DNA of 64,000 nt, taken from contig JAFMJH010000010.1 of NCBI GenBank assembly GCA_017853555.1, positions 1 through 64,000 of the forward strand, given 5' to 3'. The DNA is from Steroidobacteraceae bacterium. Its GTDB lineage: Bacteria; Pseudomonadota; Gammaproteobacteria; Steroidobacterales; Steroidobacteraceae. Within the stretch, counting starts at the first letter, position 1. Every line of letters begins with the position of its first letter. The position numbers were made by a program, and so were the translations under genes. This document shows, one piece after another, positions 26,073-58,083 of the stretch. The notes beneath the pieces are model-generated. The model saw only the letters and a program-made list of their open reading frames with translations, searched no databases and had not been told where the DNA came from.

Positions 26073-27494
26073 TCAGCGCACGCGCACGTTCTTGAATTGC
26101 CAAGGATCGGAGTGATCGACGTCTTCTTTGAAGAGCGTCTCGCGACCCGTGAGCGGGTTCCAATCCGTGTACTCGCCGACCACCGGCCCGAGATACGGCA
26201 TGCACACTTCGAGATTGCGGCGATAGTCCATCTCGTCGGGTTCGACGATGCCGCGATCGGGATTCTCCATCGCCCACACCATGCCCGACAGACACGCGAC
26301 GGTGACCTGCAAGCTGGTGGCATTGTTGTAGGGCACGAGTTTGCGCGCTTCGTCGATGCTCAACTGCGAACCGTACCAGTACGCATTTTTGGCATGCCCG
26401 GCGAGCAACACGCCGAGCTCGTCGATGCCGCCCGATGAAATCTCGTCGAGCATGATGCGCTTGTGATCTTGCAACACGTGGTTCTTGCCGACGAACTCGT
26501 GCATCGAGAGCACCGCGTCGTCGCAAGGGTGGTAGGCATAGTGCACCGTCGGGCGGTAACTCACCTTGCCGCCCTCGCGCACGGTCAGATAGTCGGCGAT
26601 CGAAATCGCCTCGCCGTGCGTGATCGCGAAACCGTGGATGTGGCCGGCCTTCGGCGTCCAGGTGCGCACGCGCGTCGCGGCGCCGGGATGCGTGAGATAG
26701 ATCGAAGCCTGCGAACCGTAGTCGTAACCGTGGCCGTCCGGCGGCAGTTCTTTTTCGTGCGAGCCCCAACCGAGTTCGCAGGGCTGCGAGCCTTCGCTCA
26801 CGAAGCCGTCGACCGACCAGGTGTTGACGAATTCATTGATCTGCTTGCGCACCGGCGACACTTGCGTGTCGCGTTCGGCGACGTGGATCGCGCGCACATC
26901 CAGTTTTTTGGCGAGCTGCGCCCAGCCGTCGCGCGTCGTCGGCTCGGCGATGCCGAGACCGAGGTCTGCAGCGATGTTGAGCATCGCCTGCTTGACGAAG
27001 TGCGACACCAAACCCGGATTGGCACCGTGCGTGAGCACCGCGGTCGGCCCGGCTTCGCGACCCTTGCGCATGCCGAGCGCCGTCTCGCGCAACGCGTAAT
27101 TGGTGCGACGATCCGGCGTCAGCGTCGCATCGGTGTAGCCGCCGGCCCAGGGCTCGATGCAGGTGTCGAGATAGAGCGCGCCGCGCTGCTGACACATTTC
27201 GATGAGGGCGATCGACGACACGTCGACCGAGACGTTGAGCAAAAAATCGCCTTTGCCGACGAGCGGCTCGAGCACACGCCGATAGTTGTCACGCGTGATC
27301 GCCTCGTGCACGAATCGCACACCGAATTGCGCCGCCTCGGCGCTGCCGCGATCTTCGGCCGTCACGATGGTGATGCGATCGGGGCTGGTACCGATATGAC
27401 GCAGCACGAGCGGCAAGACGCCCTGCCCGATGCTGCCGAAACCGACGAATACGATCCTTCCTGGAAATTCCACGTGAACCTTGTGTGCGCTCAT
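26073..27494 (-). CDS. hss: Homospermidine synthase
   Basis: This NAD-dependent enzyme of the saccharopine dehydrogenase-like group makes sym-homospermidine from putrescine (or spermidine plus putrescine). The 473-residue protein has the Rossmann start IVFVGFGSIGQGVLPLVLRH, then LNVSVDVSSIALIEMC, YLDTCIEPW, THGANPGLVSHFVKQA and the C-terminal MVWAMENPDRGIVEPDEMD, all typical of bacterial homospermidine synthases. The ATG at 27494 fits the family start; 27509 is possible. A glutathione transferase gene precedes it by 25 bases, and arginine decarboxylase, which feeds putrescine synthesis, lies 1.6 kb away on the other strand. Confidence 0.93.
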   Translation of the reverse strand: MSAHKVHVEFPGRIVFVGFGSIGQGVLPLVLRHIGTSPDRITIVTAEDRGSAEAAQFGVRFVHEAITRDNYRRVLEPLVGKGDFLLNVSVDVSSIALIEMCQQRGALYLDTCIEPWAGGYTDATLTPDRRTNYALRETALGMRKGREAGPTAVLTHGANPGLVSHFVKQAMLNIAADLGLGIAEPTTRDGWAQLAKKLDVRAIHVAERDTQVSPVRKQINEFVNTWSVDGFVSEGSQPCELGWGSHEKELPPDGHGYDYGSQASIYLTHPGAATRVRTWTPKAGHIHGFAITHGEAISIADYLTVREGGKVSYRPTVHYAYHPCDDAVLSMHEFVGKNHVLQDHKRIMLDEISSGGIDELGVLLAGHAKNAYWYGSQLSIDEARKLVPYNNATSLQVTVACLSGMVWAMENPDRGIVEPDEMDYRRNLEVCMPYLGPVVGEYTDWNPLTGRETLFKEDVDHSDPWQFKNVRVR

Positions 27495-27519
27495 GATGCT
27501 CCTTGGCAACTCCCTGGCC

Positions 27520-28246: not shown

Positions 28247-29104
28247 ATGTACCGCACGCTCGTCGATGTCGGCACCCTCGCCGCCCGCTTGCACGATCCG
28301 ACCTGGATCGTGCTCGATTGCCGCTTCGATCTCGGCAAACCGAGCTGGGGCGAGACCGCCTACGCCACCGGCCACATCGAAAACGCACGCTATTTGCACC
28401 TCGAGCGTGATCTGTCGTCGCCGGCGACGGCCAGCACCGGCCGCCATCCCCTCCCGGACCCGGACACGTTCGCCGCGCGCGCGGGTGCCCTCGGGGTCGG
28501 GCCAGACACGCAGGTCGTGGTCTACGACCAGGGCAACGGCATGTACGCCTCGCGCGCATGGTGGGTCTTGCGCTGGCTGGGCCACGCCGACGTGGCGGTG
28601 TTGTCCGGCGGCCTCGCCGCGTGGACGGCCGCAGGCCACGCACTCACCGCCGCCACCCCGGCGATCATGCCGCGTGTCTTCCATGCCGCGCCCGATGCCG
28701 CGCAGTGGGTCGACGTCACGCAATTGCAGCGGGAACTCGCGCGCGGCGACACGCGCCTCTTCGACGCGCGCGGTGCCGATCGTTATGCCGGCCAGAACGA
28801 ATCGATCGATCCGGTCGCGGGCCACGTGCCCGGCGCCATCAACCACCCCTTCACCAAAAATCTGGATGCGTCCGGGCAACTGCTGCCGGTGGCCACGCTG
28901 CGCGAGCAATTCGCCGCGACGTTGGCGGGTCACGCGCCCGCGCGCAGCATCGCGATGTGCGGCTCGGGCGTGAGCGCCTGCCTCAATCTGCTCGCGCTAG
29001 AACATGCGGGTCTGCCGGGCGCACGCCTTTATCCCGGCTCCTGGAGCGAGTGGATCCGCGATCCGTCGCGGCCGATCGAAACGGGCCCGGGGCCGGCGAC
29101 ATGA
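28247..29104 (+). CDS. sseA: Thiosulfate/3-mercaptopyruvate sulfurtransferase
   Basis: The 285-residue protein consists of two rhodanese domains. The second carries the active-site loop CGSGVSAC, whose CGSGV form is typical of mercaptopyruvate sulfurtransferases; the first (IVLDCRFDLGKPSWGETAY) is inactive as usual. It transfers sulfur to acceptors such as cyanide or thioredoxin. A GGAG site precedes the ATG. speA overlaps the stop (ATGA). Confidence 0.9.
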   Translation: MYRTLVDVGTLAARLHDPTWIVLDCRFDLGKPSWGETAYATGHIENARYLHLERDLSSPATASTGRHPLPDPDTFAARAGALGVGPDTQVVVYDQGNGMYASRAWWVLRWLGHADVAVLSGGLAAWTAAGHALTAATPAIMPRVFHAAPDAAQWVDVTQLQRELARGDTRLFDARGADRYAGQNESIDPVAGHVPGAINHPFTKNLDASGQLLPVATLREQFAATLAGHAPARSIAMCGSGVSACLNLLALEHAGLPGARLYPGSWSEWIRDPSRPIETGPGPAT

Positions 29105-31035
29105 CGAACGCGGCACGGCGCGATCCGCCCTGGAGCGTCGCGCAATCTTTGGAGCTCTATCACGTCAATGCCTGGGGTCAGGGTTATTTCGACGTCAATG
29201 CCGCAGGCCACGTCGTCGTTCGCCCGGAGCAACGCGCCGGTCACGAAATCGATCTGCTCGAAGTCGTCGAAGGACTCAAGGCGCGCGAACTGACGGCGCC
29301 CGTCGTACTGCGCTTCTCCGGCATCCTGGCGCACCGGCTGAAACAGCTGAACGACGCGTTCGCGCGGGCGATCGCGGAAAACGACTACCGCAATCGTTAT
29401 GCCGCCGTGTTCCCCATCAAAGTCAACCAGCAAAGATTGGTGGTCGAAGAAGTGTTCCGCTACGGCGCGCCTTACGGCTTCGGCCTCGAAGCCGGCAGCA
29501 AGCCCGAGCTGTTGGCGGTCATGGCGATGACCGAGAACGCGCCGGATCGGTTGATCGTGTGCAACGGCTTCAAAGACGACTCGTACATCGAAACCGCGAT
29601 GCTCGCGACCAAACTCGGTCGCACCATCATCCCGGTCGTCGAGAATTTTTCGGAACTCGGCCTGATCATCACGCACGCGCAGCGCCTCGGCATCAGACCC
29701 CGCATCGGCGTACGCGTGAAACTCGCGAGCGAAGGGTCCGGACGCTGGCGCGACTCGGCCGGCGAGAAATCGAAGTTCGGCTTGTTCATCACCGAAATCC
29801 TCGAAGCCGTCGAAGTTCTGCGACGCCACGACATGCTCGATTGCCTGAAACTCGTGCACTGTCACCCGGGCAGTCAGTTGCAGGACATCCGGCGCGTCAA
29901 AGACGCGATCAACGAACTCGCGCACGTGTATGCGGAACTGAAGTTGCTCGGCGCCGGGCTCGAATACATCGATGTCGGCGGCGGCCTCGGCGTCGACTAC
30001 GACGGGTCCGGGACCAACTACGCCTCGTCGATGAACTACAACATCGAGGAATACGCCAACGACGTGGTCTACCGCGTCGGCAGCGTCTGCAATTCACGCG
30101 GCATCGCGCACCCCGTCATCGTCAGCGAATCGGGCCGCGCGATCGCCGCGCATCACAGCGTGCTGGTGTTCAACACGCTCGGCCGCTCGGCGCTCGACAA
30201 GTTCGAAGTCACGGGCAACGAGGACCGCGACTTCGGCGGCGCGCAATGGCCGCAACCGGTGCGCGATCTGCTCGATGCCTATCGCGAGGTGAGCGAGCGG
30301 CGCATCGTCGAGTGCTGGCACGACGCCCTCACCGCACGCGAGCAATGCCTGCAGATGTTCAACCTCGGCTTGCTGTCGCTGGAGCTGCGCGGCCTCGCCG
30401 AACGTCTCTACTGGGCGACCTGCGCGCGCATTCGCGATCTGTGCCGCCGACTCGACGACGTTCCGGAAGAGCTCGAGGGCATCGAGACGATTCTCTCGGA
30501 CATCTACTTTTGCAACATGTCGGTGTTCCAGTCGCTGCCGGACTCCTGGGCGATCGATCAGCTGTTTCCCATCATGCCGATCCACCGGCTCGACGAATGT
30601 CCCACGCGGCGTGCGGTGCTCGCCGACATCACCTGCGACTCCGATGGCAAAATCGACCACTTCGTCAGCCATCGCGAAATCAAGCGCACGCTCGAGCTGC
30701 ACGAACTCGACGCCGGCGAGGAGTACTACCTCGCCGCGTTTCTCGTCGGCGCCTACCAGGAAACGCTCGGCGATCTGCACAACCTGTTCGGCGACACGCA
30801 CGTCGTGCACATCAGTCTGGACGAGAGCGGCGCCTGGTTCATCGAAGAAGTGGTCGCCGGCGACACGGCCAACAAAGTACTTGAATACATGGAGTACGAT
30901 GTGGCCGAACTCGCCCCGGCACTCGCCCGCGATTGCGAGCGCGCCATACGCGAGGGCCGGATGACGATCGCCGAGAGCCAGTCCTTGAAGCGATTTTACG
31001 AAGGCGAACTCGACGGCTACGCTTACCTCGAATGA
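29101..31035 (+). CDS. speA: Biosynthetic arginine decarboxylase
   Basis: SpeA converts arginine to agmatine with pyridoxal phosphate, opening the agmatine route to putrescine. The 644-residue protein has the PLP-lysine segment AVFPIKVNQQRLVVEEV, the VKLASEGSGRW and VHCHPGSQLQDI segments of the barrel, GGGLGVDYDGS and the C-terminal QEILGDLHNLFGDTH-like segment (here QETLGDLHNLFGDTHVVH). Its ATG overlaps the sulfurtransferase stop, and a methyltransferase follows after 16 bases. Confidence 0.96.
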   Translation: MTNAARRDPPWSVAQSLELYHVNAWGQGYFDVNAAGHVVVRPEQRAGHEIDLLEVVEGLKARELTAPVVLRFSGILAHRLKQLNDAFARAIAENDYRNRYAAVFPIKVNQQRLVVEEVFRYGAPYGFGLEAGSKPELLAVMAMTENAPDRLIVCNGFKDDSYIETAMLATKLGRTIIPVVENFSELGLIITHAQRLGIRPRIGVRVKLASEGSGRWRDSAGEKSKFGLFITEILEAVEVLRRHDMLDCLKLVHCHPGSQLQDIRRVKDAINELAHVYAELKLLGAGLEYIDVGGGLGVDYDGSGTNYASSMNYNIEEYANDVVYRVGSVCNSRGIAHPVIVSESGRAIAAHHSVLVFNTLGRSALDKFEVTGNEDRDFGGAQWPQPVRDLLDAYREVSERRIVECWHDALTAREQCLQMFNLGLLSLELRGLAERLYWATCARIRDLCRRLDDVPEELEGIETILSDIYFCNMSVFQSLPDSWAIDQLFPIMPIHRLDECPTRRAVLADITCDSDGKIDHFVSHREIKRTLELHELDAGEEYYLAAFLVGAYQETLGDLHNLFGDTHVVHISLDESGAWFIEEVVAGDTANKVLEYMEYDVAELAPALARDCERAIREGRMTIAESQSLKRFYEGELDGYAYLE

Positions 31036-31051: not shown

Positions 31052-32176
31052 ATGAATGCGGTTCCCCGTGCACTCGACACCCCGACGACGACGCCTCTCG
31101 TGGTCCACGAGAGTCGCGACTTTCGCAGCTATCACGCGTTTCTGCGCGCCGCGCGCAACTTCATGGAAGGCCCGCTCGTCGGCGCCATGCACGACGCCTA
31201 CGAGCGCCGCATCCATGATCAAGGCGGCGCTGCACCGGCGGACTGGCGTGCGGCCGAGCGCGTGCTCGACGACACGCTCGAGTTCCAGTTTTATTGTTGG
31301 GCGTATCGCAACCTGCAACGCTTCAAATATCACCGTCCGACGCTCGGCATTTTCGCCACGCTCGAGGCGCAGCGCGCCGCCCTCGAAGCCCAACTCGACG
31401 CCACGGCCCGCGAAACGCCGCCCGAGTGCCTGCGCCTCGACCCGCAACTGAAACTACCCGAGTACTTCGAGTTCGTCCCCTTCCACCAGCACACCGGCGG
31501 CGTCGCCAAAGATGCGCTCGACGGCCTCGCCTATGAAATCGGTCGCCGTACGACCGTGCCCTCGCACGGTGACCCCAACGGCATCTACCGCATCCTGTTC
31601 GAAGCGCTGCCGCAGGGACGTTATGCACGCGTGCTCGATTGGGGTACCGGCCACGGCGCGGCGCTGGTCACCTGGCAGCGCCTGCATCCGCAATCCGAGT
31701 GCCACGGCGTCGATCTGTCGGCACCCTGCCTCAAAGTGGCCAATCAGCGCGCTCGCGAGAACGGCATGCGGCTGCTGCTCTCGCAACAGGATCTCGAGCA
31801 TCTCGACTATCCCGACGCGCACTTCGATCTGATCTTCTTCAATTTCATGTTGCACGAACTACCGCGTTCGCACACCCAGGCGCTGCTCGCCGAAGCCTGC
31901 CGCGTACTCAAACCGGGCGGGTTGTTCGCCGGTCACGAGTTCCATCTGCGACCGGGCGACCCGTTTCAAAACGTGCTGCAACGCAGCCACGCCTACACCA
32001 ACAACGAAACCTATTCGATACCGTGGTACGACACGCCCATCGAGGCGCTCGGTCGAGCCGCCGGTTTTTCGTCGGTCACGATCGAGCCCTTCGCGCGACT
32101 CAACCGCTCGGTGCAACGCCCGGGGCGGGCCCCGATCAACGCCAACCACTGGAACCTCTACCAATTTCGCAAATGA
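31052..32176 (+). CDS. Two-domain SAM-dependent methyltransferase, module copy A
   Basis: The 374-residue protein has an N-terminal helical region (about 20-150) that I do not recognise, containing YRNLQRFKYH and LRLDPQLKLPEY (127-138), followed by a class I methyltransferase fold: motif I VLDWGTGHG (194-202), acidic motif ECHGVDLS, FDLIFFNFMLHEL and LKPGGLFAGHEF. Its paralogue at 52160-53395 shares the LDPQL-x-[LI]-P-x-Y motif, the RN-x3-[FY] segment and the same domain order. AAAGG precedes the ATG. A small helical protein gene overlaps its stop (ATGA). It lies 16 bases after speA, so polyamine-related methylation is possible but unproven. Confidence 0.8.
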   Translation: MNAVPRALDTPTTTPLVVHESRDFRSYHAFLRAARNFMEGPLVGAMHDAYERRIHDQGGAAPADWRAAERVLDDTLEFQFYCWAYRNLQRFKYHRPTLGIFATLEAQRAALEAQLDATARETPPECLRLDPQLKLPEYFEFVPFHQHTGGVAKDALDGLAYEIGRRTTVPSHGDPNGIYRILFEALPQGRYARVLDWGTGHGAALVTWQRLHPQSECHGVDLSAPCLKVANQRARENGMRLLLSQQDLEHLDYPDAHFDLIFFNFMLHELPRSHTQALLAEACRVLKPGGLFAGHEFHLRPGDPFQNVLQRSHAYTNNETYSIPWYDTPIEALGRAAGFSSVTIEPFARLNRSVQRPGRAPINANHWNLYQFRK

Positions 32177-32517
32177 ACGCACCCCACTTCAAAGCTGCAC
32201 TGCAAGGTCCGGTCACCGACCGCGAACCGGATTTTTTGCGCGACCTGCCGCCCGACAATCTGGTCGGCGCCATCGTCGCGCTCACCGCCGAGGTGTATCT
32301 GCTGCGCGAACGGCTGCAAACGCTTGAAGCGGAGCTCGCGGCGCACCGCGTCTTGCCGGCCGATGCGGTCGAACGGCACGTGGACGACCCCGAACGCGCG
32401 GCTGCCAAAGCCGCCGATCTGGCCGCTTATACCGAGCGCGTGATGACCGAGCTGGTGCGCGATCGCGTCCCCGTGTCCACGATCGATCCGCGCGTCACCA
32501 AATATTTGGGTGACTGA
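32173..32517 (+). CDS. Small helical partner protein of methyltransferase A
   Basis: This 114-residue protein matches no family I know. Residues 28-94 are predicted helical, with a heptad-like stretch at 36-56 (VALTAEVYLLRERLQTLEAEL) suggesting a coiled coil. The same block aligns without gaps to residues 33-99 of the small protein at 51862-52188, with about 20 of 67 positions identical including LTAE, RL, AA and RV. Both follow a methyltransferase with overlapping reading frames. The ATG shares bases with the methyltransferase stop. It may be a binding partner or activator of the methyltransferase. Confidence 0.75.
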   Translation: MNAPHFKAALQGPVTDREPDFLRDLPPDNLVGAIVALTAEVYLLRERLQTLEAELAAHRVLPADAVERHVDDPERAAAKAADLAAYTERVMTELVRDRVPVSTIDPRVTKYLGD

Positions 32518-32603: not shown

Positions 32604-33506
32604 ATGTCCCGTTATCGGAATTCGGTGGCGTTGATAGCCACGCTGCTCTGCGCGCTCGCCCTGCCGGCGCAGGCCGCCAAACCCAAGCGTATCGATCTTT
32701 CCACACCCGAAGGCGCGAACCTCGCAGCGCGCAAAATCCAGTGCTCGGCGCAGGACAACGTGCCGACGGTCTACTGGTTCCACGGCGAGGGTTACAGCCG
32801 CGTGCCCGGCGAGCGCGACCGCAAACTCTTCAACGTCGAAGGCATGAACATCCGCCAATGCGTCACCGTCACCGATCCGGTGCGCGGCGCCGGCTGGCGA
32901 CTGATCTCGCGCGAATTGCTGCTGTATGTCGATCCGGCGACAGGCGAACTGCTGCGCGACTGGAAGAATCCGTGGACCGGGCAGACGGTCAAAGTTTTGC
33001 AGACCGCGAACGATCCGGTGAACCAGCGTCCGGTGTTCCCGATCGGCGCCGACGGCAAACCGGCCACCTGGACCGCCACGATGAGCGGCAACCAGTGGTG
33101 GAACACGCTGACCGTGCCGCTCTTCTACTCGAACCCGCTTGCCGGTGATTACCAGAAGCAGATCGGCGGCTTCTACCACGCCACCGAGATGTTCAATTTC
33201 TTCGGCAACATCGACGAACTCACCGACCCGAAGAATCTGAACCCGGCGATTCGCGTCGGCTGGGTGCGCATCGCCGATTGGCTGCCCTGGATGGAGATGA
33301 GCGGCCGCGCCGGCGAAATCTACATCCATGCCGCGGGTCGCAAGCTCGACAACTTCGAACAGTTGCCGCCCGTGGTCCTCAAGGAAATCGCGGCGACCTA
33401 CCCCGAGTGGCGCTCGCCGCCGCCGGCGGATGACGCACGCGAAAACGAAACCAGCTGGACGTACTACAAGAAGAAGTTCCCGCCGGCCAGCGGCGCCAGG
33501 AAATAA
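32604..33506 (+). CDS. DUF1838 family exported protein
   Basis: The 300-residue protein has a signal peptide (cleavage near LPAQAA, residue 22) and matches the DUF1838 family in its overall pattern: ARKIQCSAQDN, WFHGEGYSRVPGE, RDWKNPWTGQTV and YHATEMFNFF. The function is unknown; the size and Trp/Tyr-rich composition suggest a beta-rich periplasmic protein. AGGAGG stands 7 bases before the ATG, giving a firm start. It follows the methyltransferase/small-protein pair but appears to have its own promoter, and ends at a strong hairpin. Confidence 0.82.
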   Translation: MSRYRNSVALIATLLCALALPAQAAKPKRIDLSTPEGANLAARKIQCSAQDNVPTVYWFHGEGYSRVPGERDRKLFNVEGMNIRQCVTVTDPVRGAGWRLISRELLLYVDPATGELLRDWKNPWTGQTVKVLQTANDPVNQRPVFPIGADGKPATWTATMSGNQWWNTLTVPLFYSNPLAGDYQKQIGGFYHATEMFNFFGNIDELTDPKNLNPAIRVGWVRIADWLPWMEMSGRAGEIYIHAAGRKLDNFEQLPPVVLKEIAATYPEWRSPPPADDARENETSWTYYKKKFPPASGARK

Positions 33507-51394: not shown

Positions 51395-51880
51395 ATGCTG
51401 ACCATGATGATGTCGTCGCTGCGCGGGGTCGCGCTCGCGCTGCTGATGTCGATGTTGCCGCTCGCGGTCGCGCAGTCCGAACAGATTCTGGATCTCGCCT
51501 CTTTTCCGCGCGGCACGCTGCGCGTCGAGAGCGCGCGCGGCCCGCATCAATTCGAGGTGTGGATTGCCGACGACGAAAATCGGCAGCGACAGGGACTCAT
51601 GTACGTGCGCGATCTGCCTGCGAATCAGGGCATGCTGTTCATCAACCCGGAGCCGCGACCTTCGTCGTTCTGGATGAAGAACACCTACATCGCGCTCGAC
51701 ATGTTGTTCATCGACGCGCGCGGTCGCATCGTGGCGATCTATCCCGAACGCAAACCGCTATCTTTGACGCCGGTCGGCCCCGACACGCCGGTGCTCGGCA
51801 TCCTCGAATTGCGCGGTGGCGAAGCGGCCGCACGCGGCATCCGCCGCGGCGATCGCGTCGTTCATCCCGCCTTTCGCTGA
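51395..51880 (+). CDS. DUF192 exported protein
   Basis: The 161-residue protein has a signal peptide (cleavage near AVAQS) and a DUF192 domain with RQRQGLMYVRDLPANQGMLF, FWMKNTYIALDMLFID and VLGILELRGGEAA. The biochemical role of the family is unknown. GGAGGG, inside the end of the padR gene, supports the ATG at 51395, so it is co-transcribed with padR. Its last 19 bases overlap the convergent small-protein gene. Confidence 0.9.
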   Translation: MLTMMMSSLRGVALALLMSMLPLAVAQSEQILDLASFPRGTLRVESARGPHQFEVWIADDENRQRQGLMYVRDLPANQGMLFINPEPRPSSFWMKNTYIALDMLFIDARGRIVAIYPERKPLSLTPVGPDTPVLGILELRGGEAAARGIRRGDRVVHPAFR

Positions 51881-52188
51881 CCCTCGGCCGTCAACGCTCG
51901 AAACACCCGATCGAGATATTCGCGCTGCAGGCGCGCCCGCTCGGCCGCCTCGTGCGGCTCGGGCTTGAATTCATCGACCGTCGCCCGCGACACGTCGTCG
52001 CCGCGACCGAGCATGCGCTCGACGGCATCGAGGCGCAGCCGCGTGATCGCGAGCTCCGCCGTCAACACGAGTGCCACCGAATACAAGCGATCCAGCATCG
52101 GATCATCGGTGAACTCCGGGCGGCGCCCTCTGGCCGCTAGTGACGCGAGCCGGGTGGGATCAGCTTCGATCGGCAGGAGTGTGTCCAT
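51862..52188 (-). CDS. Small helical partner protein of methyltransferase B
   Basis: This 108-residue protein is the counterpart of that at 32173-32517. Residues 33-99 align with it without gaps, with about 30 percent identity, including LTAE (42-45), the AA pair and RV near residue 94. A helical, possibly coiled-coil structure is likely; no known family is recognised. The ATG at 52188 lies inside the end of the methyltransferase gene (29-base overlap). The same gene order and overlap at both loci suggest a protein that works with the methyltransferase. Confidence 0.75.
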   Translation of the reverse strand: MDTLLPIEADPTRLASLAARGRRPEFTDDPMLDRLYSVALVLTAELAITRLRLDAVERMLGRGDDVSRATVDEFKPEPHEAAERARLQREYLDRVFRALTAEGQRKAG

Positions 52189-53395
52189 GTCCGTACTCTC
52201 CTTTGACGACGTTTCCGTGTGCCGTCTGCCACGCGCCAATCGCGTACCAGGAGGGCGCACGCCCGAAATCTTCCACGACCGCACCCTCGGCTTGCGTGCG
52301 TTCGCGCACGAGCGGGGCGCTGCAGCGCGTCTCGAACACGTTCGCGGCCTCGAAACCCGTTGATCGCAACAGCGACGGCACATCGGTTTCGTGCAAGGCG
52401 CTCCAGAACGGCTCGTTGTTGTACCGACCGTCCCAGTCGCGCATGAACTGCTCGTAGGCGTCGAATTGGCGATACGGCGGTTGTTCTAGATGGATGGTGA
52501 GGCCGCCCGGCGCGAGCAGGCGCTTCGCTTCGCTCAAAATTTTGCGCAACGCGTCGTGCGAGGTCTCGTGCAGCACCATGGTGGTGAACACGAGATCGCA
52601 GCTGCCGCTCGGCAGCGAGGTGTGCGTGGCGTCTTCCTGTCTGAATTCGAGATCGTCGATGCCGAGCGACCGCGCGCGCGCATGCCCGTAGCGCAAGAAC
52701 GGCGCCGCGACGTCGATCGCGACGACTCGCGCCGACGGAAACGCACAGCGCAGCGGCAAGGTGTTGTGCCCGAGGCCGCAGCCGAGATCGACGATCGTGC
52801 GCGGCGAAAAATCCGGCGCGTGCCGCGCGAGCCACGCCACGAGCGCACGACCGGCCGCATCGTTCCACGGGCCGCCTGCACCACCCAAGGTCGCGAACAA
52901 TCCGGAGTCGTAACTGGCCGCGTTGCAGACGTCGCCATCGACGACTTCGCACGCATAGCCGCCAGGCATCAAATGCGTATCGACGCTCGCGACGTACTTC
53001 GGGATGTCGAGTTGCGGATCGAGATGCAGCGTGTCTGCGCCGTCATTGAACTCGCGCGCGCGATCGCGCAACTTCCGCATCTGGCGCAGCGCCAACGCAC
53101 GACCGGTGTGCTGCCGGTATTCCATGGTGTTGCGACGCACCAGACTCCAGGCGCGATACGCCGGTTGATGCGCCAAAGCCTCGGCGACTTCCTTGCGATT
53201 GGCCGGAGCGCGCCCGTGCTTCGCCTCCCACGCCGGTGCCGCAACCTGCTCGTAGGTGGCACGCACGGCAGGGGCGAGTCGATCGGCGAGCAAAGTATTG
53301 AGCTGCGCGATGACGTCGAAGCGCGCGACGTCGTCGTGCCCTGCCTCGGGCAACAACGCGTGCCGACCAACCTGATACCACGATGCCGGAGTCAT
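52160..53395 (-). CDS. Two-domain SAM-dependent methyltransferase, module copy B
   Basis: The 411-residue protein repeats the layout of copy A: a helical N-terminal region with RRNTMEYRQH and LHLDPQLDIPKY (123-134), then a class I methyltransferase fold with VDLGCGLGHN (202-211), VVAIDVAAPFL, CDLVFTTMVLHE and LLAPGGLTIHLEQP. The SAM-binding glycines are intact. The N-terminal region is not a family I know. ATG 53395 is used; GTG 53422 is possible, and neither has a clear ribosome binding site. It is divergent from the nhaR-like gene, whose operator-like repeat lies between them. Confidence 0.8.
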   Translation of the reverse strand: MTPASWYQVGRHALLPEAGHDDVARFDVIAQLNTLLADRLAPAVRATYEQVAAPAWEAKHGRAPANRKEVAEALAHQPAYRAWSLVRRNTMEYRQHTGRALALRQMRKLRDRAREFNDGADTLHLDPQLDIPKYVASVDTHLMPGGYACEVVDGDVCNAASYDSGLFATLGGAGGPWNDAAGRALVAWLARHAPDFSPRTIVDLGCGLGHNTLPLRCAFPSARVVAIDVAAPFLRYGHARARSLGIDDLEFRQEDATHTSLPSGSCDLVFTTMVLHETSHDALRKILSEAKRLLAPGGLTIHLEQPPYRQFDAYEQFMRDWDGRYNNEPFWSALHETDVPSLLRSTGFEAANVFETRCSAPLVRERTQAEGAVVEDFGRAPSWYAIGAWQTAHGNVVKGEYGHGHTPADRS

Positions 53396-53453
53396 GGGCC
53401 GGGATGCTAGCGTCGGCTGCACCGATCGAAAAATCGATTATTCTGTGCATACT

Positions 53454-53470
53454 GTTCGGTATTCCCGAAC
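53454..53470. promoter_or_regulatory. Inverted repeat, possible LysR-type operator
   Basis: GTTCGG, five bases, CCGAAC is a perfect 6-bp inverted repeat centred between the methyltransferase B module and the nhaR-like gene, 16 bases before the regulator start. LysR-type proteins usually bind such dyads in the shared divergent region. Confidence 0.45.
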
Positions 53471-53486
53471 TTTCGGAGCGCGAACC

Positions 53487-54389
53487 GTGCGGCACCTGAA
53501 CTACAACCACCTGCTCTATTTCTGGACCGTCGTGCGCGAAGGCGGCATCGGTCCCGCCGCCGCCGCGCTGCACCTGACGCCACAGACGGTGAGCGGGCAG
53601 ATCAAATTGCTCGAAGACCAGCTGCAAGGCGCCCTGTTCGAAAAGCAGGGGCGACGGCTCGTGCCGACAGAACTCGGCCGACTCGCCTATGACTACGCCC
53701 AGGAGATCTTCCCGCGCGGACTCGAACTGGCGAGTCTGCTGCGCGGCGCCCGCAGCCACGGGCGTCGCTCGGTCACCATCGGGGTGTCGGATGCCGTGCC
53801 CAAACTCGTCACCTGGCGCATGCTCGCGCCGCTCGTGGCCGGCGACAGCGCGTTCAAGCTCGTCTGTCACGAAGGCGCGCTCGCAGATCTGCTCACCGAC
53901 CTCGCCGCACACAAGCTCGACCTCGTGCTCTCGACCAGCGCGCTGCCTGCCGACTCGGGGATCAAGGCCTTCAGTCATTTGCTCGGCGAGTCGACGCTCG
54001 GATTCTTCGCTGCGCCGACGCTCGCCAAAAAATTGCGACGCAATTTCCCGCACAGCCTGCAGGGCGCGCCGCTGCTCGCCCCCACGGACCGCAGTGCCGG
54101 CCGGCGCGTACTAGACGCCTGGCTGGAGGCGCGCGGGGTGAGCCCGTCCATCGTCGGCGAATTCGACGACAGCGCGCTGATCAAAACTTTTGCCCAGCAA
54201 GGGCTCGGCGCGTGCGTCGCACCGCTCGCGATCGCGAAGGAGATCGAGCATCAGTACGGCATCGCGCCGATCGGCACGGCCACCGATCTGGTCGCACGTT
54301 TCTACGCGATCTCGACCGAGCGCAAAATTCGCCACCCGGCGGTGGCGGCGATCACTATGGGCGCGCGCTCCGCCCTTTTTGCGCGCTGA
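53487..54389 (+). CDS. nhaR: NhaR-like LysR family regulator
   Basis: The 300-residue protein aligns from end to end with E. coli NhaR (301 aa): LNYNHLLYFWTVVREGG, LTPQTVSGQIKLLEDQLQG, GRRLVPTELGRLAYDYA in the helix-turn-helix region, and LGEFDDSALIKTF and AISTERKIRHPAV in the effector domain. NhaR activates the sodium-proton antiporter gene nhaA and other genes in enterics. No nhaA is in the window, so the target here is unknown; the divergent methyltransferase module is a candidate. Start is GTG with GGAG upstream. Confidence 0.88.
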   Translation: MRHLNYNHLLYFWTVVREGGIGPAAAALHLTPQTVSGQIKLLEDQLQGALFEKQGRRLVPTELGRLAYDYAQEIFPRGLELASLLRGARSHGRRSVTIGVSDAVPKLVTWRMLAPLVAGDSAFKLVCHEGALADLLTDLAAHKLDLVLSTSALPADSGIKAFSHLLGESTLGFFAAPTLAKKLRRNFPHSLQGAPLLAPTDRSAGRRVLDAWLEARGVSPSIVGEFDDSALIKTFAQQGLGACVAPLAIAKEIEHQYGIAPIGTATDLVARFYAISTERKIRHPAVAAITMGARSALFAR

Positions 54390-55593: not shown

Positions 55594-56817
55594 TCAACGT
55601 GATGCCGACAGTGCGGCAATGAACGGATTGAGAAACTTGCCGTCGTCGAAGTCGTTGCGGATGCGGCCGATGCGCACCACGACCGCGCGCTCGTTGGGCA
55701 GCACGTAGACGCGCTGCCCGCCACGCCCGCCGGCGTACACGACGCCGCGGCTCGCAAACGCGGTCGGCGTCGGCAAGGGACGATCGCCCGCCACCGATCG
55801 CGGCACGAGGGCGGTCGGTTGCAAAAACCAGTTCATGCCCACGCCCGCATTGAGCGGCGCGGGCGCGAGCAAGCGCTCGATGCTCGACTCGCGCAACACC
55901 CGCCGGCCCTGCGGTGCGCCGCGCGTACGGACCAATTCGCCGACTTTTGCCCAATCGCGCGCGTCGGCTTGCAGACAGCAAAACGTGCGCGTGTTGCCAC
56001 CCTCGCGATCGAGCCTCACCCAGGCATCGTCGGCGCCGAGCGGCCGCCACAGACGACGCGACAAAAACTTCGCGTAGGACTCGCGCGTCGCGTGCTCGAG
56101 CACGAGCCCGAGCAATTGGGAATCGAGCGCGTTGCCGCGAAAAACCTTGCCGGGCGCAGCGACCGGTCGCTGTGCAAGCGCTAGCGCGCGCAGATCGCCG
56201 CCGATGAAGAGCTGCATGCCCGGCGAGTCGGCGCGAAATTCATAGGGTGGATCGGCGAGACCGGATTGGCCATGCAACAGGTCGCTCAGGGTGATGCGAC
56301 CGCGGGCATCGCCGGCCGCGCGCCATTCCGGAAAGAAATCCGCCAATGGCTGCTCCAGAGATCGGATTTTGCCGTCCTCGAGCGCAGCAAGCACGGCGAG
56401 CGCGAGTACGCCGCGGTGCATGGACTGCGTATCGAAGCGCGTTTTGGCATCGATGCCGGGTGCGTAGTATTCGAGCGCGATTCGACCGTCGATCATCACG
56501 ACGACGGCCAAAGAATCGTAGCTGCGGGCCACCTCGAGCGCGCTCGCGAACGTCGCAGCCGGCGCGGGTTCGTGACGCGACGCCGGCGCACCGGCCACGC
56601 GCATGCGCGGTCGGTACCATTCGGCGGTGGCGACCACCTCGTCCTGCGGCGGCATGTCGCGAAATCGTTGGGCGACGAGTTGCGCGGCATCGTAGGGCGG
56701 CGCAGAGGCGCAGCCGGCGATCAGCGAGACGCCCGCGAGCAGCATGCTCGCCACCGACGCCCGTGATCGCAGCGGAATCCGCGGTGCACGGCGATCACGA
56801 TGAGGCAGAGGCTGCAT
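55594..56817 (-). CDS. Beta-lactamase-fold serine hydrolase lipoprotein
   Basis: The 407-residue protein has a lipoprotein signal (SLIAGC, Cys 36) and the penicillin-binding/class C beta-lactamase fold: a Ser 132 in TQSMHRG, LSDLLHGQSGL, and a C-terminal region with YAGGRGGQRVYVLP. The usual SxxK lysine is Arg 135, and the YxN motif reads RGN in FRGNALDSQLLG. It may be inactive or use other residues. An ATG with TACAAT 6 bases ahead suggests a leaderless transcript. The DUF3089 gene follows. Confidence 0.82.
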   Translation of the reverse strand: MQPLPHRDRRAPRIPLRSRASVASMLLAGVSLIAGCASAPPYDAAQLVAQRFRDMPPQDEVVATAEWYRPRMRVAGAPASRHEPAPAATFASALEVARSYDSLAVVVMIDGRIALEYYAPGIDAKTRFDTQSMHRGVLALAVLAALEDGKIRSLEQPLADFFPEWRAAGDARGRITLSDLLHGQSGLADPPYEFRADSPGMQLFIGGDLRALALAQRPVAAPGKVFRGNALDSQLLGLVLEHATRESYAKFLSRRLWRPLGADDAWVRLDREGGNTRTFCCLQADARDWAKVGELVRTRGAPQGRRVLRESSIERLLAPAPLNAGVGMNWFLQPTALVPRSVAGDRPLPTPTAFASRGVVYAGGRGGQRVYVLPNERAVVVRIGRIRNDFDDGKFLNPFIAALSASR

Positions 56818-56823
56818 GCGGTC

Positions 56824-56829
56824 ATTGTA
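56824..56829 (-). promoter_or_regulatory. -10 box of a probable leaderless transcript (serine hydrolase)
   Basis: On the minus strand TACAAT is followed by GACCGC and the ATG at 56817. No clear -35 is seen 16-18 bases upstream. Confidence 0.45.
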
Positions 56830-56856
56830 GCGGTTGCCGCCCGCGCCCCGCCCGCT

Positions 56857-56862
56857 CACAAT
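56857..56862 (+). promoter_or_regulatory. -10-like box directly upstream of HMG-CoA reductase
   Basis: CACAAT (4 of 6) is followed by TGCCGC and the ATG at 56869, the same 6-base spacing as on the divergent strand. There is no Shine-Dalgarno site. The hexamer match is weaker than at the other sites. Confidence 0.3.
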
Positions 56863-56868
56863 TGCCGC

Positions 56869-58083
56869 ATGTCCGATGACGCCCGTTCGACCGCCGCGCC
56901 CCGACGCCTGCCTGCCACCACCGACGCCTCGCGCGAGGCGCGGGATGCGCGACGTGCACGGCTCGCCGAAGACGGGCACGAAATCGCCGCCCTCACCGGC
57001 GCTGCAGAGCCCCTGGATCCCGAGCGTCTCGCCGGCAGCATCGAGGGCTTCATCGGTTACGCGCAGGTTCCGCTGGGCGTCGCCGGACCGGTGCGCGTGC
57101 ACGGTCGCCATGCCGAGGGCGATTTCATCATCCCGCTCGCCACCACCGAGGGCACGCTGGTCGCCTCCTTCCAGCACGCCTTCAACGTCATCAATCGCTG
57201 TGGCGGCGCGCACGCGGCCTGCACGCGCCAATTGGTCGGACGTGCGCCGTGCTTCGCCTTCGCGGACGTCGCCACCGCCGTGCGCATCGCCGACTGGTTG
57301 CCGACGCAACTCGAAGCGATGCGCACGACCACGCTCGGCACCTCGCGTTATTGCCGCCTGCAGAGCGCGAAGACTTCGGTGGTCGGCAACACCGTCTACA
57401 TGATGCTCGAGTTCTCGACCGGCGATGCCGCCGGTCAAAACATGGTCACGCTCGCCACGCAGGCGATCTGCCTCGAACTTTTGCCGCGCATGGAATCGCA
57501 GCCGACGAGCTGGCTGGTCGAGTCGGTGCTCTCGGGTGACAAGCGCGCCTCCGCGCAGGCGTTTTTGGGTGCCCGTGGTCGCAACGCATCCGCTGAAGTC
57601 GTACTGCCGAATCGCAACATCGCGCGCTATTGGCGCGCCGATGCCGCGGCGATGGCGCGTTGCTGGAATCAAGCGACGGTTGGCGCCGCGCAAACCGGTG
57701 CCGTCGGCTTGCAAGGCAACGTCGCCAACGCACTCGCCGCTTTGTTCATCGCTTGCGGTCAGGACGTCGCCTGCGTGTCCGAAGCGACGACGTCGATCTC
57801 GCGCTTCGAGGTGACGGCGACGGGCGATCTTTACGTGTCGGTCACGCTGCCGAATCTGATCGTCGGCACGGTGGGCGGCGGCACCTTCCTGCCCACGGCG
57901 CGCGAGTGCCTCGCCATGCTCGGCTGCACGGGCACCGGCACCGCCGCCAAGTTCGCCGAACTCTGTGCCGTGGTGGCGCTCGCCGGCGAGCTCGCCGTCG
58001 TCGGTGCGATGGCCAGCGGCGCTTTCGCCGATGCACACGCGAGCGGCGGTCGCAAAGGCCGGGGCACGGGAAGCGCCGAGTGA
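56869..58083 (+). CDS. Hydroxymethylglutaryl-CoA reductase, class I type
   Basis: The enzyme reduces HMG-CoA to mevalonate, the committed step of the mevalonate route to isoprenoids. The 404-residue protein has EGFIGYAQVPLGVAGPV, the catalytic Glu 94 in LATTEGTLVAS, Lys 225 in SGDKRAS, Asp 299 in FIACGQDV and His 390 in FADAH, plus the cofactor loop TGDAAGQNM and GTVGGGTFLPT. These residues and segments follow the class I (eukaryotic/archaeal and some bacterial) form, not the class II MvaA form. It lacks a membrane domain. Most gammaproteobacteria use the MEP route instead. An acyltransferase gene overlaps its stop (GTGA). Confidence 0.93.
   Translation: MSDDARSTAAPRRLPATTDASREARDARRARLAEDGHEIAALTGAAEPLDPERLAGSIEGFIGYAQVPLGVAGPVRVHGRHAEGDFIIPLATTEGTLVASFQHAFNVINRCGGAHAACTRQLVGRAPCFAFADVATAVRIADWLPTQLEAMRTTTLGTSRYCRLQSAKTSVVGNTVYMMLEFSTGDAAGQNMVTLATQAICLELLPRMESQPTSWLVESVLSGDKRASAQAFLGARGRNASAEVVLPNRNIARYWRADAAAMARCWNQATVGAAQTGAVGLQGNVANALAALFIACGQDVACVSEATTSISRFEVTATGDLYVSVTLPNLIVGTVGGGTFLPTARECLAMLGCTGTGTAAKFAELCAVVALAGELAVVGAMASGAFADAHASGGRKGRGTGSAE

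Follow-up and report, generated by a model that had tools for sequence, protein, structure and literature searches.

Class I SAM-dependent methyltransferases that act on small molecules, matched by Methyltransf_25/11 and represented by RebM (3bus), are among the closest described systems to the large protein studied here, designated MT, which likewise has the motif-bearing Rossmann fold for SAM, including a conserved histidine. The same class includes phosphoethanolamine N-methyltransferases (5wp5) and the C-methyltransferases SgMT (9gdj) and SeMT (9icz). Unlike those enzymes, MT carries a helical N-terminal region of approximately 130 residues, which had no Pfam match at E ≤ 1, displays LDPxLxxP and DxH motifs together with a conserved NNEP motif, and is accompanied by a partner gene for a small helical protein, designated SM.

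An N-terminal extension preceding the SAM domain, as in MT, is found in Rv2258c (5f8e), DsyB (7wdq), RedM (8tjj) and DnrK (1tw2), which gave some of the best Foldseek E-values for the MT of copy A (MT-A); full-length superposition of MT-A on these four proteins was poor (rmsd 15-19, TM 0.40-0.47), and likeness of the N-terminal parts is not implied. COMT-type O-methyltransferases, which have an N-terminal dimerisation domain, were also aligned to MT-A by Foldseek, at high rmsd. The Trm112-activated methyltransferases provide an analogy in the way they work, in that a catalytic class I methyltransferase is paired with a small partner, and the catalytic chains 4qtu and 6f5z were among the fold matches of MT-A. 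Trm112 is a small zinc-binding partner with cysteines; unlike it, SM-A and SM-B contain no cysteine and SM-A was modelled as helical throughout, and SM was on these grounds rejected as a Trm112-type activator. A preliminary description of this DNA knew of no account of the pair, and in agreement with that, no description of an MT-SM pair was found in searches of open-access PubMed Central texts, including passages of PMC10653915 and PMC4609964.

Two diverged gene pairs in one window

The window, that is the whole stretch of 64,000 nucleotides from a Steroidobacteraceae genome that was analysed, contains two MT-SM pairs, copies A and B (Table 1). Each had been read as a methyltransferase with a helical N-terminal region beside a protein of 108-114 residues, encoded in overlapping frames, and the open reading frames, motifs and overlaps were all confirmed; the MT-A stop and SM-A start overlap by four bases (ATGA), and the SM-B start lies inside the MT-B end with an overlap of 29 bases. 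An in-frame GTG start would make MT-B 420 aa. Two motifs recur in MT-A and MT-B (LDPQLKLPEY and LDPQLDIPKY; RNLQRF and RNTMEY, respectively), and the two proteins are identical in 84 of 305 columns (28%, E 5e-25). The small proteins align without gaps at about the identity given previously (24 of 79 positions, 30%, E 1e-05).

At 28% identity between MT-A and MT-B, and with the copies in different parts of the MT tree (the position of copy A being uncertain, on a long branch), recent duplication of one module inside the window was ruled out. The earlier notion of a module present twice was upheld insofar as both pairs are real; judged from their sequences, the two copies are paralogues that have diverged strongly, not one module present twice, in a genome with 17 MTs and 13 SMs. 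The neighbours of copy B are the LysR regulator, DUF192 and DUF3089, and beyond it (window 56800-58083) is what we take, by eye, to be an HMG-CoA-reductase-like protein.

Table 1. Features of copies A and B and their immediate context (window positions)
Feature	Position	Strand	Basis
speA-like gene preceding copy A (context; name from the preliminary description)	29101..31035	+	gene call
MT-A, class I SAM-dependent methyltransferase (by domain) with helical N-terminal region	31052..32176	+	ORF, 374 aa
MT-A N-terminal helical region, residues 22-121, five helices	31115..31414	+	predicted structure
SM-A, small helical protein	32173..32517	+	ORF, 114 aa; SM profile match
DUF1838 protein following copy A (context)	32604..33506	+	PF08894 E 2.5e-69
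SM-B, small helical protein	51862..52188	-	ORF, 108 aa; SM profile match
MT-B, large protein	52160..53395	-	ORF, 411 aa with this start
LysR-family regulator, divergent from copy B (context)	53394..54389	+	PF00126, PF03466

Domain structure and conservation of MT

Pfam Methyltransf_25 matched residues 194-290 of MT-A (E 8.3e-22) and also matched MT-B (E 3.4e-20), and all of the Pfam matches listed for MT-A start at residue 179 or later. The AlphaFold2 model of MT-A (mean pLDDT 90.1, pTM 0.90) placed the five N-terminal helices (22-121) before the SAM fold. Alignment of 93 MTs revealed that residues P136, H145, G149, D221, D259, H268, E269, G290, E319 and G338 are invariant and that G198 and G202 are kept in at least 90% of the proteins. 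The MT profile retrieved RebM from the PDB (3bus, E 6.8e-21), and H268 aligns with a histidine of RebM in the profile alignment. By domain, with a SAM-binding Rossmann fold, a glycine motif and an acidic ribose-binding residue, MT is thus predicted to be a class I SAM-dependent methyltransferase.

The fold matches of MT-A were to class I small-molecule methyltransferases, many of them tied near Z 17-19; the tied top matches included 9gdj_B (SgMT; VIA Z 18.6, 203 residues, rmsd 3.1), in a comparison that barely tests the N-terminal part of MT-A. Among the NCBIfam equivalog matches listed (25 of 46 for MT-A and 25 of 50 for MT-B), none was over its cut-off, and the best by E-value scored 54.1 bits for MT-A and 56 bits for MT-B, against a cut-off of 180 (CpaM).

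The small protein

SM-A was modelled as a helical hairpin (helices 27-57 and 73-96, mean pLDDT 82.8). Searching the PDB with this fold returned two matches, at E 4.0 and 8.9, which are meaningless, and the SM profile reached a best E of 0.16 against PDB sequences. A likeness to the nitrile hydratase alpha subunit (E 0.21) was considered and dropped.

When 70 SMs were compared with Pfam, no common family emerged: the most shared was PspB (4 of 70, best E 0.033), the lowest E-value listed was 3.3e-05 (Peptidase_S41_N, 3 of 70), and SM-A itself matched DUF7310 at E 0.0021, scoring 19 bits where the cut-off is 40. Comparison of the same 70 proteins with NCBIfam gave weak matches only, including pspB in 11 (best E 0.0007), and these Pfam and NCBIfam matches are taken as helix-composition matches. 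No Pfam or NCBIfam model assigned both MT and SM to one known pathway, which agrees with the earlier reading of the module as new. Conservation along the long helix of SM was not one-sided (moment p 0.88), and that of the second helix was slightly so (p 0.08); the even conservation of the long helix is compatible with burial between partners, a fit and not a proof.

Family size within the genome

A search with MT-A matched 18 places in the genome (2.48 Mb, 74 contigs, 93.8% complete), and profiles iterated over the fetched loci and the window found 19 MT-type open frames and 13 SMs. We counted as MTs the 17 frames that retain all or some of the N-terminal region, a number of which lie at contig ends; L020 has the SAM domain only and L022 is an N-terminal fragment at a contig end. 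Just two of the 17 MTs lie in the window. A 2.5 Mb genome spends 17 genes on one methyltransferase family and 13 on a partner family that is unrecognised by Pfam and NCBIfam. Ten of the 17 MTs have a same-strand SM within 400 bp; the other seven have none within that distance, so MT does not always require an adjoining SM.

Other arrangements were also seen. At L007 (7573-9532) a single MT has an SM gene on each side, and glyoxalase-like, isochorismatase and CoA-transferase III genes adjoin; at L011 an SM lies 1.1 kb from an MT; and at L019 (7355-7660) a lone SM adjoins a threonine dehydratase gene on the same strand, in a 15 kb stretch that gave no match to MT. The MT genes at L009, L015, L016 and L022 end at contig edges; the assembly may break at the MT family, and the true MT number could differ.

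Co-occurrence and phyletic distribution

It was found that 37 of the 41 SMs in six related genomes had a same-strand MT within 300 bp, where random placement would give approximately 0.3. SM was downstream of MT in 29 of these 37 cases and upstream in eight. Conversely, 35 of the 48 MTs in these genomes (52 matches minus four weaker ones with E > 1e-50) had an SM, and four of the 41 SMs were without a near MT. The proposal that the pair represents a conserved functional unit is strongly supported by the 37 of 41 SMs, and the possibility of SMs occurring mostly without an MT, raised at the same time, gave way to the opposite.

Phylum-wide, SM was retrieved in four of 398 sampled genomes and MT in the same four, this genome included, in a screen that scored at most 12 SM and four MT candidates per genome, such that matches may be missed. 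All four SMs listed for the other three genomes adjoin a same-strand MT. Within a set of 30 genomes (this one and relatives), MT was matched in 27 and SM in 23 at thresholds set beforehand; judged by the best E-values per genome, limits of E ≤ 1e-50 for MT and E ≤ 1e-6 for SM, which were chosen afterwards, single out the same 22 genomes. An SM was found within 400 bp of 87 of 132 distinct MTs (window, L007-L022 and L024-L131; L001-L006, L023 and short matches omitted), and contig or locus ends truncate some of the other 45.

Named records, limited to the top 80 among 225 stretches and covering 79 loci, placed the family in Steroidobacteraceae, other gammaproteobacteria, Erythrobacter, Altererythrobacter, Kordiimonas and Rhodospirillaceae, with record titles that are partly doubtful (for instance, Klebsiella pneumoniae MAGs), and SM adjoins MT in most of the 79 loci. 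The pair was found in both alpha- and gammaproteobacteria, and also on plasmids, namely those of Sphingomonas sp. JE1, Sphingobium sp. TomTYG65 and Novosphingobium. Phage records gave a single weak match, to the SAM part only.

Gene spacing, phylogeny and co-divergence

Among 73 distinct pairs in which SM follows MT, 31 overlap, 21 of them by exactly four bases, another 25 are spaced by 0-30 bases and 17 more widely; genes of unannotated loci came from a simple caller, whose starts may be wrong and affect these spacings.

Near-copies were removed ahead of alignment, which took 117 MTs down to 97 and 91 SMs down to 74; a further four rows per alignment were excluded later. The resulting tree of 93 MTs comprised 63 with SM, 29 without and one undecidable, with 10 label changes against 24.9 in shuffles; SM pairing is spread over the MT tree, and some sub-clades are without it. 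MT and SM distances correlated over 87 pairs (r 0.78), and only at r 0.38 among the divergent pairs. The ten pairs found in the present genome showed no correlation (r 0.08, p 0.35), nor was there co-divergence in an earlier run with eight of its pairs (r 0.11). No clear set of MT residues specific to SM-paired members was found, and no MT-SM fusion proteins were present among the loci scanned.

Gene neighbourhoods

A total of 641 genes lying within four genes of the module at 96 loci were clustered, with close relatives counted separately, which inflates the figures, and the clusters were named by Pfam runs on one or few members each. The largest neighbour families were TonB receptors (17 of the 96 loci), FAD monooxygenases (16), SDR (14) and CoA-transferase III (13), followed by alpha/beta hydrolase, MmgE/PrpD and a 222-residue protein without a Pfam match, each in 12 loci. 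Aldehyde dehydrogenase, named by eye, was likewise near the module in 12 of the 96 loci, and smaller families included OYE (9), isochorismatase (8) and LysR (8). A HapK gene (REDY-like, PF11639) was near the module in 10 of the 96 loci, such as at L065:6558-6869.

FAD_binding_3 is the sole neighbour family with a genome-wide background. Across seven genomes, six of 36 FAD_binding_3 genes lay within 2 kb of an MT, where approximately one was expected (Poisson p 0.0005), and seven of 36 lay within 5 kb, with 1.9 expected (p 0.004); these p-values are too small, because two of the hits (G001 and G006) are probably orthologous and two others flank one MT.

In the present genome, the genes near MTs include those for UbiD, PhyH, a Rieske oxygenase, an OYE-type reductase and enzymes of the FAD monooxygenase and FAD_binding_2 types, together with CoA-transferase III, isochorismatase, alpha/beta hydrolases, MFS transporters and an arylmalonate-decarboxylase-like protein. 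Neighbours of a different character are also found, namely an ABC exporter, MotB, a threonine dehydratase, an FGE-sulfatase-type protein and an O-acetylhomoserine-sulfhydrylase-like enzyme. Around copies A and B themselves, no catabolic island is evident.

A conserved Rhodospirillaceae-type cluster (L094, L098, L099, L101, L104 and L105) contains four or five MT paralogues along with as many as three SMs, and five or six MTs are clustered at L086. Genes of the Rhodospirillaceae clusters encode HMGL-like, CoA-transferase III, isochorismatase, MmgE/PrpD, alpha/beta hydrolase and methylisocitrate-lyase-like proteins, as well as an FAD monooxygenase to which tropone 2-monooxygenase is nearest among solved structures. 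Two SMs in a row occur in these clusters.

Proposed function of the pair

The reading that we put forward, and consider about as likely as not, is that MT and SM are two subunits of one SAM-dependent small-molecule methyltransferase, largely located in catabolic islands. From the co-occurrence and adjacency of the genes, their tight or overlapping spacing, their phyletic spread, the SAM motifs, the predicted folds and the recurrent catabolic neighbours, we infer a physical MT-SM complex that would transfer methyl groups, and the role of SM and the nature of the substrates may be sketched as follows. The class I fold of MT would hold SAM and bear the catalytic residues, whilst the SM hairpin probably packs on the helical N-terminal region of MT, completing or stabilising it. 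The enzyme would serve gene islands for the uptake and degradation of organic compounds, probably ring compounds. The family has diversified into many paralogues, each presumably for another substrate or pathway step, with some MT lineages having putatively lost, or never had, an adjoining SM. Doubt attaches chiefly to four points: some MTs have no SM, the surroundings of copies A and B are not evidently catabolic, this genome's own pairs show no co-divergence, and the texts searched gave no biochemical precedent.

More tentatively, the pair could represent an undescribed, widely scattered class of SAM-dependent enzymes built from two subunits, the small helical one belonging to a new family. 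Such a class would have diversified among proteobacteria of lakes and the sea, serving them as a toolkit for the degradation of cyclic compounds and possibly extending to chemistry beyond simple methylation; we consider this wider claim somewhat less likely than not. If the pair is one enzyme, the annotations 'class I SAM-dependent methyltransferase' and 'hypothetical protein', as on pJE1, would acquire a joint meaning. It would also suggest that uncultured bacteria of lake and marine habitats, as judged by record titles, have catabolic routes in which methyl groups are transferred or related reactions take place, and isolates of Erythrobacter, Novosphingobium and Sphingobium would offer a test case for why a small-molecule methyltransferase needs a helical subunit.

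The strongest competitor, which we nonetheless consider unlikely, is that MT and SM share a pathway and form no complex, with SM being a separate factor, for instance a substrate carrier, chaperone or regulator, made from the same transcript. A separate factor of this kind would account for the lone SM beside threonine dehydratase at L019, for the four of 41 SMs without a near MT in the six genomes, for the SMs on both sides of the L007 MT and for the consecutive SMs of the Rhodospirillaceae clusters. However, the two genes are adjacent almost without exception in alpha- and gammaproteobacteria alike and often overlap by four bases, as is typical of subunits, and no family was recognised as common to most of the 70 SMs.

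The subunit reading takes the chemistry to be methyl transfer. It is improbable, more so than the separate factor, that in ring degradation the MT fold, together with SM, has instead been reused for another reaction, be it decarboxylation, hydroxylation, isomerisation or C-C cleavage, in which SAM or SAH would be a structural cofactor: across 93 MTs, D221 and the candidate catalytic H268 never vary, at least 90% keep the motif glycines, and ordinary methyltransferases match the fold equally well or better. What such chemistry would explain is the presence of four or five MTs in one Rhodospirillaceae catabolic cluster, which exceeds the methylation steps expected of a degradation route, and it would suit the fold matches to SpnF and to chimeras with RdmB/TamK regions. 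SpnF and RdmB/TamK are methyltransferase-fold proteins with other chemistry.

Genomic context of copy A

Orthologues of the copy A MT, at 73-81% identity, were identified in 12 of 18 other genomes of the same genus. SM is present in all 12 orthologous loci, the DUF1838 gene lies downstream in 11, and speA is upstream in 10, directly beside MT in nine of these and approximately 1.1 kb off at L132; the locus at L141 is cut at the MT start. At L139 the MT-SM pair is kept, with neither speA nor DUF1838 within the fetched stretch. On this distribution, speA is regarded as a local neighbour and MT-SM as the unit.

Amine- or polyamine-linked substrates had been suggested for copy A in view of speA, and the arrangement invites it: the order is speA-MT-SM, with a gap of 16 bases from the speA stop to the MT-A start, and further points in its favour are the 73-81% identity of the MT orthologues and the 10 of 12 loci with speA. 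A tie to polyamine or amine metabolism is nevertheless very unlikely and the suggestion is left unsupported, given that the other family members of this genome adjoin other genes, that orthologues were found in just 12 of the 18 genomes and that the fetched stretch of L139 shows the pair without speA or DUF1838. A defence role, with MT as a DNA or anti-phage methyltransferase, is scarcely credible: PADLOC mad2 did match the SAM domain (E 4.3e-16 and 2.7e-20), but only at positions 275-393 and 276-401 of 492, the SAM part, and with approximately 120 positions covered MADS membership was rejected, neither SM-A nor SM-B has a PADLOC match, and the Pfam names of the neighbours run do not suggest defence.

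A scan of copy A gave no promoter-like sites (0.2 in shuffles) and two terminator-like sites (1.5 in shuffles). Upstream of speA, window positions 26073-27509 presumably encode a homospermidine-synthase-like protein, as assigned by eye. The order MT-SM-DUF1838 recurs at L008 (PF08894 E 3.3e-44).
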